From: Actinomyces marmotae
Lineage (GTDB): Bacteria; Actinomycetota; Actinomycetes; Actinomycetales; Actinomycetaceae
NCBI RefSeq assembly: GCF_013177295.1
Contig: NZ_CP053642.1
Span: 1,302,001 to 1,366,000, forward strand
Direction: 5' to 3'
Length of the DNA: 64,000 nt
This document shows positions 54,898 through 58,229 of this stretch, in pieces. Made by a program: the position numbers and the translations under genes. The notes beneath the pieces are model-generated. The model saw nothing but the letters and a program-made list of their open reading frames with translations. It made no database searches and was not told where the DNA came from. Within the stretch, counting starts at the first letter, position 1; the number at the start of each line of letters is the position of its first letter.

Positions 54898-55776
54898 TCA
54901 GTGCACCGTGAATCCGTGGGAGCGGAAGATCGCGCGGGTGGATTCCACGAGCTCGGGCTCAGGGGGCCGCGAGTCGCGCAGCGTGTAGTCCAGCCCCAGG
55001 GCGTCCCATTTGTCGGTGCCCATCTGGTGGAACGGCAGCACCTCGACGCGGCTGACCACGGATCCCCAGCGCTCGACGATCCGTGCGACATTCTCCGCAT
55101 TCTCCGGGCTGTCCGTGAGCCCAGGCACGAGGACGAACCTCGCCCAGATCTCAATGCCCTTGGCGGCCAGGCGGTCGCCGAACTCGATGGTCGGGGCGAG
55201 TTCCCGGCCGGTGACCCGCTTATAGGTCTCCTCGTCCCCGCTCTTGACGTCCAGGAGCACGAGATCGATGTTGTCGAGCATCTCGTCAGTGGCGTTGCGG
55301 CCGAGGTTGCCGGAGGTGTCGATGCAGGTGTGGATCCCCATCGCCTTGGCGCCGGACAGGAGCCGCGCGGCGAAGGCCGGCTGCATGAGCACCTCTCCGC
55401 CGGAGAGGGTGATGCCGCCGCCCGAGGCCCTGAAGACATTCCTGTAGCGCTTCATGCGCCGCAGGAGTTCGTCGGCCTCGACCGGCTCGCCGTCCTTCAT
55501 GAGGAAGGTGTCCGGGTTGTGGCAGTACAGGCAGCGCAGCGGGCAGCCGTTGAGGAAGACGGTCATCCGCGTGCCGGGGCCGTCCACCGCTGTGACGAGC
55601 TCCCAGGAGTGGATGGAGCCCAGGGTTCCCTCGCGCATGCGCGCCAGTCGCTCTGAGCGCTCAATGTCGGAGAGCTCCTCGAGCCCGCCGATACCCGCCC
55701 CGCGCAGACGGGCGGCCGGGGCCAGGAAGTCCTGGTCCCGGCCGCCCAGCGCCGCGGGGGTCATGGTCTCAGTCAT
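54898..55776 (-). CDS. pflA: Pyruvate formate-lyase activating enzyme
   Basis: This 292-residue radical-SAM enzyme makes the glycyl radical on pyruvate formate-lyase. The iron-sulphur motif is CPLRCLYC (CX3CX2C), with GPGTRMTVFLNG before it and GGGITLSGGEVLMQ after it, as in PflA. The extra 40-50 residues at the N-terminus, before GSIHSWELVTAVDGPG, are longer than in E. coli. It is the last of three pfl genes, 22 bases after the small radical-domain gene. Confidence 0.95.
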   Translation of the reverse strand: MTETMTPAALGGRDQDFLAPAARLRGAGIGGLEELSDIERSERLARMREGTLGSIHSWELVTAVDGPGTRMTVFLNGCPLRCLYCHNPDTFLMKDGEPVEADELLRRMKRYRNVFRASGGGITLSGGEVLMQPAFAARLLSGAKAMGIHTCIDTSGNLGRNATDEMLDNIDLVLLDVKSGDEETYKRVTGRELAPTIEFGDRLAAKGIEIWARFVLVPGLTDSPENAENVARIVERWGSVVSRVEVLPFHQMGTDKWDALGLDYTLRDSRPPEPELVESTRAIFRSHGFTVH

Positions 55777-55798
55777 CTGAGCCCTGCCCCGTGCCGGA

Positions 55799-56044
55799 TC
55801 AGGCGCCGGCGTGGAAGGTGCGGTTGAGGACGTCCAACTGCTGCTCGCGCGTCAGCTTGACGAAGTTGACGGCGTAGCCGGAGACGCGAACCGTGAGGTT
55901 CGGGTAGTTCTCCGGGTGCTCCATCGCGTCCTCAAGGGTGTTGCGGTCCAGGACGTTGATGTTGGCGTGGTAGAGGCCCTTGACGCCGCCGTTGCCCTGG
56001 CGCTGCGCCTTCATGGACTCAAGGCGCTCTTCGTAGGTGGGCAT
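55799..56044 (-). CDS. grcA: Stand-alone glycyl-radical domain of pyruvate formate-lyase (GrcA/YfiD-like)
   Basis: This 81-residue protein is a complete C-terminal PFL domain: [20 protein letters not shown], then RVSGYAVNF with the radical Gly at residue 56, and [15 protein letters not shown] at the end. In E. coli the similar YfiD replaces the tail of oxygen-cut PFL. Here the adjoining pflB has no such tail of its own, so this protein should be an obligatory subunit that carries the radical. AAAGGGG is five bases before the ATG. It lies 67 bases after pflB and 22 before pflA. Confidence 0.93.
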
Positions 56045-56111
56045 GTCTGCCCCTTTCTGTGTGGTGAGTTGTGTTCTGAGCCGTGATGGTCCAGGGGATC
56101 GCGCGGTGCGA

Positions 56112-58229
56112 TCAGACCTCGGCGCAGTCGTCCGGGACGAAGCCGGCGTCGAGGATGCCCACGAGGTTGGCCACGCGCTCCTCGAGCGTGCGGCCCAGGC
56201 CCTGCGGGGTGATGGTGTTGGTCAGCGAGATGCCGTCGAGGGCGTCGTTGTAGTCGAGCTTGCCGACGGACAGCATGGAGGCGACCATGCCGTGCGTGTC
56301 CATGCCGTTCTCCGGGTTCGCGCCCGGGGAGAAGGGGGTGCCCTTCTTGTGGCCGGACGGGAAGGAGCCGGTGGCCTTGCCGTAGACGACGTTCGAGGTG
56401 ATCGTCAGAACGGACTGGGTCGGGATCGCGTCGCGGTACATGGGCTGCGCCTTGATCTTGGACATGATCGTGTGGACCACCGTGGCGGCGATGTCGTCGG
56501 CACGGTCGTCGTCGTTGCCGTAGATCGGGAAGTCACCCTCGGTGACGTAGTCGACGACGAGGCCGGTCTCATCGCGCACCGGGGTGACCTTGGCGTACTT
56601 GATGGCGCTCAGGGAGTCGGCGACGATCGACAGGCCGGCGATGCCGCAGCCCATGGTGCGCACGATGTCGGAGTCGTGCAGCGCCATCTCGATGGCCTCA
56701 TAGGCGTAGCGGTCGTGGCACATGTGGATGATGTTGAGGGCCTCGACGTAGGTGGCGACGACCCAATCGAGCATCTTCTCGTACTTGTCCCAGACCTCGT
56801 CGAAGTCCAGGGGGCCGTCGCCCTCAATGCCGGGCAGGCCAGTGACGATCTGCTTGCCGGTCATCTCGTCACGACCGCCGTTGATGGCGTACAGGAGCGC
56901 CTTGGCGGAGTTGACGCGGGCGCCGAAGAACTGCATCTGCTTGCCCACGCGCATCGGGGACACACAGCAGGCGATGGCGGCGTCGTCGCCCCAGTGCTCG
57001 CGGATCTGCTCATCGGCCTCGTACTGGATGGAGGAGGTCGTGATGGAGATGTAGGCGCAGAAGTCCTTGTAGCCCTTGGGGAGCTTCTCATCCCAGAAGA
57101 TGGTGATGTTGGGCTCCGGGGCGGGGCCGAGGTTCACCAGGGTCTGGAGGAGGCGGAAGGAGGTCTTGGTGACCATGTGGCGGTTGTCGTCGGAGAAGCC
57201 GGCGTCGGACCAGGTCGCCCAGTAGGGGTCGCCGGAGAAGATCTGGTCGTAGTCGGTGGTCCGCAGGAAGCGCGTGATGCGCAACTTCATGACGATGTTG
57301 TCGATGAGCTCCTGGGCGCGGGTCTCATCGATGACGCCGGCCTTGAGGTCGCGCTCGAAGTAGCAGTCGAGGAAGGCGGACAGGCGGCCGATGCTCATGG
57401 CGGCGCCGTCCTGGGACTTCACCGAGGCGAGGTAGGCGAAGTACGTCCACTGCACCGCCTCGTGGGCGTTGGTGGCCGGGCCGGAGATGTCGAAGCCGTA
57501 GTCGGCCGCCATCTTCTTGAGCTTCTTGAGGGCCTTGATCTGCTCGGAGTGCTCCTCGCGGTAGCGGGCCCAGTGCTCGGAGAAGGGCTGGTCGGCGACC
57601 TTGTCCTTGGCGATCTCCTTGAGCTCGATGAGGCGGTCGACGCCGTAGAGGGCCACGCGGCGGTAGTCGCCGATGATGCGGCCGCGGCCGTAGGCGTCGG
57701 GCAGGCCGGTGATGATGTGGCTGGAGCGCGCGGCGCGGATGCGCGGGGTGTAGACGTCGAAGACCGCGTCGTTGTGGGTCTTGCGGTAGCGGGTGAAGAT
57801 CTTGGCGACCTCCGGGTCGACCTCCTTGCCGGCCTCCTTGATGGCCTGGGCCACCATCCTCCAGCCGCCGTTGGGCATCATGGCGCGCTTGAGCGGGGAG
57901 TCGGTCTGGAGGCCGACGATGACGTCGTCATCCTCGGAGATGAAGCCGGGGACGAAGGCGTCGATGTCCGAGGGGGTGTGGGTGTCGACGTCGAGGATGC
58001 GGACCTTGCGCTCCTCCTTGAGGTACTTCTCCTCCAGGGTGTTCCACAGACGAAGGGTCTTGTCTGTGGCGCCGGCGAGGAATGAGGAGTCACCGTCGTA
58101 GGGGGTGTAGTTGCGCTGGATGAAGTCGCGGACGTCGATGTCCTCGGTCCACGGGCCGGTGGCGAAGCCCTCCCACGCGTCGGTCCGGGTCCCATCCGCG
58201 GTGGTGGATGAAGTGACCTCAGTTGTCAT
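56112..58229 (-). CDS. pflB: Pyruvate formate-lyase catalytic subunit, lacking the glycyl-radical tail
   Basis: This 705-residue protein is the body of pyruvate formate-lyase, which splits pyruvate with CoA into acetyl-CoA and formate in fermentation. The two catalytic cysteines are C421 and C422 in AIACCVSPM. Other marks are [22 protein letters not shown] and [12 protein letters not shown]. It ends [19 protein letters not shown], just where the normal enzyme continues to the radical domain, and has no RVSGYA motif. The next gene supplies that domain. AGGAGGA is a few bases before the ATG at 58229; the open frame above it is not homologous. Confidence 0.95.

Follow-up and report, generated by a model that had tools for sequence, protein, structure and literature searches.

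In textbooks, pyruvate formate-lyase (PFL) is a radical enzyme of one chain, which oxygen cleaves in a dead end relieved by a side rescue. Escherichia coli PflB (TIGR01255) is one chain of 759 amino acids (aa). In E. coli YfiD/GrcA and phage T4 Y06I, the glycyl-radical domain is a separate protein that is activated by PflA and acts in trans on a PFL core (PMC8683613, PMC12338860). The locus described here is in Actinomyces marmotae, within a stretch of 64,000 nucleotides (nt) of contig NZ_CP053642.1 (positions 1,302,001 to 1,366,000, forward strand), termed the window; coordinates below are those of the window. Three genes are found on the minus strand in the order truncated pflB, an 81-aa radical-domain gene, and the gene for the PFL-activating enzyme. 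The sequence very probably encodes an obligate two-subunit PFL, with the radical on the small subunit. The features are as follows.

56112..58229, minus strand, pflB, large subunit of 705 aa, a PFL core without the glycyl-radical domain (TIGR01255 positions 1–681 of 744; PF02901)
56964..56969, minus strand, codons of the catalytic Cys pair in IACCVSPM (Cys418/Cys419 in the alignment with E. coli PFL)
56139..56189, minus strand, last helix of the large subunit, 17 aa (from the sequence; a helix in the proxy model of a relative, L211)
56045..56111, minus strand, intergenic gap of 67 nt, with a Shine-Dalgarno (SD)-like AAAGGGG at 56050–56056 (from the sequence)
55799..56044, minus strand, small radical subunit of 81 aa, NCBIfam GrcA2 (NF008341, 165.5 bits against a cut-off of 145; TIGR01255 positions 682–741)
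55979..56038, minus strand, N-terminal extension of the small subunit (residues 3–22), a probable docking helix (conservation in 92 different small proteins; models)
55877..55879, minus strand, codon of Gly56, the radical site, in RVSGYAVNF (Gly102 in YfiD and Gly734 in PFL, by alignment)
54898..55776, minus strand, pflA, PFL-activating enzyme of 292 aa (TIGR02493, 299.8 bits against a cut-off of 231.75)

The large gene begins with an ATG at 58229 behind AGGAGG, and its TGA ends at 56112 (queries with the large protein were of 706 aa and started one codon upstream of the ATG). The encoded protein has the PFL core, as judged by the TIGR01255 profile, together with the IACCVSPM motif, whose Cys pair we take to be catalytic as in E. 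coli. The locus resembles E. coli PflB in its core (~57% identity), Cys pair, radical loop and activase, but two chains are present here in place of one. The glycyl-radical domain is not on the large chain and is carried by the next gene. Together, the two proteins tile the TIGR01255 profile, and the gene boundary divides the glycyl-radical profile PF01228, with profile positions 1–65 in the large protein and 65–106 in the small one. The large protein alone gives 981 bits with TIGR01255, just below the whole-protein cut-off of 994, and its best PDB match spans the core only. An earlier sequence-only reading of this DNA had proposed that the large subunit stops before the radical domain, that the next gene encodes this domain with Gly56, and that the activase follows; the profile matches bear this out, and the genes had been placed at the correct positions.

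The small protein differs from YfiD, which has 127 aa and another N-terminus and supplements a full-length pflB. It gives 83.9 bits with the YfiD/GrcA model TIGR04365 (cut-off 170) and 97 bits with the GrcA3 model NF038360 (cut-off 158), both below the cut-off, but is a member of GrcA2. The name of the GrcA2 model is autonomous glycyl radical cofactor, and this would be in keeping with a mere spare part that serves some other, full-length PFL of the cell, of the kind that coexists with YfiD/GrcA. The genome search speaks against this, and such a role is extremely improbable. The host genome (2.42 Mb, a single contig) has one PF02901 match and displays no PF01228 match at E ≤ 0.001 beyond the two split open reading frames; with these two profiles no second, full-length PFL was found in the contig. 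In addition, each of 189 matching genomes in the family has one PFL match. A hidden full-length PFL is thus ruled out by the genome search, and the small protein is the sole PFL radical carrier found. This agrees with the sequence-only reading, in which the separate domain seemed to be the only radical carrier in this operon; that reading had suggested a search for another full-length pfl and would have been refuted by a second intact PFL gene.

In Silvimonas terrae (L143:3763-3945), a 61-aa radical-domain gene is found directly behind pflB and is followed by the activase. The gene order is as in Actinomyces, but the S. terrae pflB is full-length, so that there the spare part lies inside the operon.

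A split common to the radical enzymes of this genome is ruled out: the anaerobic ribonucleotide reductase NrdD is a single open reading frame (PF13597 positions 2–562 of 562). This shows that the split is not general to such enzymes here.

The two-gene structure could also be a sequencing error or a pseudogene, or a single protein could be produced by read-through or frameshifting. The 67-nt gap puts the large and small genes of the window in different frames. A comparison was made of 102 different split loci, the window included (six second genome copies, the metagenome-assembled genome (MAG) L124 with a broken large reading frame, L127 with a partial one, and the Clostridium locus L192, a broken fused gene, were excluded beforehand). 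Relative to the large gene, frames 0, 1 and 2 are used by 37, 33 and 32 of the small genes, respectively. The 37 loci with a shared frame are what read-through would require; however, the near-even use of all three frames argues against both read-through and frameshifting. Large-gene stops are varied (TGA 65, TAA 30, TAG 7), and so are the gaps (−1 to 227 nt, median 55). Every small gene begins at a start codon of its own (ATG in 100, GTG in 2) and has an SD-like site (102/102). The large subunits are 77%–98% identical to that of the window, which also speaks against these accounts. The order large–small–activase is present in 100 loci; no activase was seen within the fetched stretches of the other two (L112, L223). 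The best named match among the matches listed, Actinomyces gaoshouyii pika_113 (L123), a separate genome, has the same layout, with 98% identity in the large and 100% in the small protein. A sequence or frame error, which the sequence-only reading had named as a way in which it could be wrong, is contradicted by the frames and by L123. The spread of frames, stops and gaps rules out a frame error, a pseudogene and read-through, and these accounts can hardly be credited any longer.

The gene layout, the profile tiling, the lack of another PFL in the genome and the conservation across families are seen in the sequences themselves; we infer a complex of the two proteins, a radical transfer between them and a role for the N-terminal helix. 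The large protein would provide the PFL core and the Cys pair; the barrel's last strand, the loop with the glycyl radical and the terminal helix would come from the 81-aa protein. PflA would load the radical onto Gly56 of the small subunit. The docked small subunit would then hand it to the Cys pair, as occurs inside one chain of E. coli PFL. The conserved N-terminal helix probably keeps the small subunit attached to the core or offers it to PflA.

Such a split appears to be catalytically possible. In PMC8683613, E. coli PFL truncated at residue 695 and combined with YfiD is described as catalyzing as well as wild type once activated, and according to PMC12338860, E. coli with a radical-incapable PFL still makes formate with GrcA and makes none without it. 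Here the alignment of the large chain stops at E. coli residue 693 and that of the small chain starts at 697. Some points weigh against the two-subunit interpretation. The engineered E. coli pair shows no binding detectable by isothermal titration calorimetry and its activation is 32-fold lower, according to PMC8683613. The structural model was built from an alignment that includes fused rows and so cannot prove docking. The radical loop has a predicted local distance difference test (pLDDT) value under 50 in the model, which is that of the relative L211. The poor binding of the engineered pair suggests that a natural pair needs a better or an extra recognition element. The N-terminus of YfiD is described as aiding radical loading (PMC8683613), and in the split systems the conserved extension of the small subunit would be the obvious candidate for such an element.

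This extension is helical in models. Among the 92 different small proteins, R5 is present in 92, M9 in 91 and R/K13 in 92, and there are exactly 20 residues from the first T/S of the extension to GL[YF]H in 90; a set of 112 rows that includes repeats shows the same pattern. Over 9 columns the best match of the extension in the entire PFL core is the collinear last PFL helix, TKDEQVTNL, which ranks first of 687 windows in split cores and first of 743 in outgroup PFLs. With 11 columns it ranks second in split cores and first in the outgroup, and with 13 columns it is not first; these windows were chosen after the sequences had been seen. The match is a hint, and no more, that the small gene may have arisen from a copied 3′ end of PFL. 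The large protein keeps its own last helix (from its sequence and the L211 proxy model).

The sequence-only reading had suggested a survey of relatives, and the natural split was found widely. In the family of the window, a single TIGR01255 match (E ≤ 1e-60) is present in each of 189 genomes out of 213. Full-length matches are found in 32 and matches that are not full-length in 157, a part of which was counted from the tally together with lower scores, with the open reading frames read in 63 split genomes besides the window. Judged by these sequence matches, this operon is no exception, and most pflB-bearing genomes of the family have the split. A class-wide sample of 394 genomes shows pflB in 43 besides that of the window; 40 are full-length and two are split (G588, G293). 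In G230 of this sample (L115), the match ends at TIGR01255 position 637, and no radical domain was found within the fetched stretch. In the genus of G588, pflB is present in 66 of 151 genomes and none of the 66 is uninterrupted and full-length (the G1057 match stops at 564); ten loci were read and all are split. Named split records include at least seven in Corynebacterium (L127 with its partial large reading frame among them), and, likewise as a lower bound, Dermabacter hominis, Brachybacterium squillarum and a Trueperella MAG.

A careful tree was constructed from 84 cores, 53 split and 31 fused (some rows come from identical or almost identical genomes). The split rows fall into a single clade, which is fully supported and has a long stem (0.74 to each side of the root). 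The clade also contains 13 fused rows, i.e. six Bifidobacteriaceae and seven with Cellulomonas citrea. The fused PFLs nested in this way include L134 (C. citrea), L249-L254 and L262-L263, and are possible re-fusions. The fused PFLs of the family are ruled out as a recent source of the split, as the split rows are on another branch with its long stem. The split/fused label needs three changes on the tree, and one change suffices in none of 200 bootstrap trees. These sequences are best read as a single fission with two later re-fusions, since the split small proteins that were read share the same extension. The fused chains within the clade are joined without this extension. The careful tree makes a single split without any reversal less likely; the approximately unbiased (AU) test, however, does not reject all split rows as a single clade (p 0.26), so lineages that were never split are a possibility, and this counts against re-fusion.

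The split may have no present benefit. In this account, a spare-part gene beside pflB allowed the enzyme to do without its own radical domain, which was then lost, leaving the cell reliant on the gene. S. terrae, with its full-length PFL and radical-domain gene, could represent a half-way state, and the 9-column helix match looks as if a 3′ end had been copied. The nesting of fused relatives in the split clade also fits, as one chain seems to be tolerated. On the other hand, the helix match has the weaknesses given above, re-fusion is uncertain from the AU test, and the persistence of the split across families hints at a use. We consider this account a real possibility, somewhat short of an even chance.

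A second type of split was detected from tblastn matches that stop early. As in Actinomyces, the radical domain is on a separate protein (80–83 aa), but the cut is earlier, after ALGK at profile position 665–670. The last helix is in the small subunit alone, whereas in Actinomyces it stays in the large subunit. Collinsella aerofaciens (L271:3004-5392) has an annotated pflB of 683 aa and a grcA3 of 83 aa; Subdoligranulum variabile (L270:3001-6322) has proteins of 682 and 80 aa with the activase adjoining. GrcA3 is above its cut-off in 21 of 396 genomes of the phylum, all 21 outside the class of the window, and each has a single PFL match, which ends at position 665–670. Judging from Collinsella, the 21 are presumably Coriobacteriia. 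The junction was read in six; the tails of the large subunits contain CACEAD in L272 and L275-L277 and CAACEAD in L273 and L274. Two PDB chains, 38la_A (687 residues) and 38lb_A (739 residues), are PFL chains without a recognizable radical domain and are nearest to the second type, and 38lb shares its tail after ALGK. Cores of the second kind thus seem to have been solved; no radical-domain chain turned up from these two entries, nor did a paper on them in the open-access literature searched. Overall, the sequences suggest that the split is old and widespread and arose at least twice.

Three viral contigs (L203, L204 and L205; 19–167 kb, match from 5001) encode small radical-domain proteins that keep the last PFL helix. 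The L203 protein is just over the GrcA3 cut-off (159 bits, cut-off 158). Viruses may carry a replacement subunit for hosts with a split PFL.

Alternatively, in line with the idea put forward in the sequence-only reading, the small subunit may be a replaceable radical part: oxygen would cut it at Gly56, the cut protein would leave, and a fresh copy would restore the intact large subunit. Lineages with the split PFL include several that live with oxygen (Actinomyces, Corynebacterium, Dermabacter and Brachybacterium), and the strictly anaerobic Bifidobacteriaceae have a fused one. However, other lineages with a fused PFL, Cellulomonas and Microbacterium, also live with oxygen. The second split type, moreover, occurs in Collinsella and Subdoligranulum, which are gut anaerobes; aerotolerance is therefore not the whole story of the split. 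The clade contains just two fused groups, which is not enough to draw a contrast, and the small gene lies within the same operon as the large one. In favor of replacement are the chemistry and the precedent of YfiD (PMC8683613, PMC12338860). It is plausible that the small subunit would be exchanged once oxygen has damaged it, and replacement as the reason for the split is quite possible, if a little less than probable.

A broader scheme is offered tentatively, as possible but on the doubtful side. PFL would have been cut into an obligate core and a radical cartridge at least twice, at two points and in two bacterial groups, and rejoined at least twice in Actinomycetes. The cartridge would once have been a spare part and would be swapped after oxygen damage, and the natural pair would solve the recognition problem that underlies the poor binding of the engineered E. 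coli pair.

Glycyl-radical domains that act in trans are familiar as spare parts; in the literature searched, none was seen to be the only radical carrier of an entire group. Among the open-access papers listed, no natural split PFL appeared as a topic in titles and the beginnings of abstracts (subscription papers and preprints were mostly outside the scope of this search). For GrcA2 and GrcA3 in these genomes, the label “autonomous glycyl radical cofactor” may be misleading, as “cofactor” appears to understate the role. Many of the large subunits exceed the cut-off of the PFL model as formate C-acetyltransferase, yet, from their sequences, should not work alone. Natural pairs could aid the engineering of radical enzymes that recover from oxygen. 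They also make it testable how a separate glycyl-radical domain is recognized, loaded and possibly replaced. A large bacterial group, many of whose members are human-associated, appears to depend on a radical domain that acts in trans.
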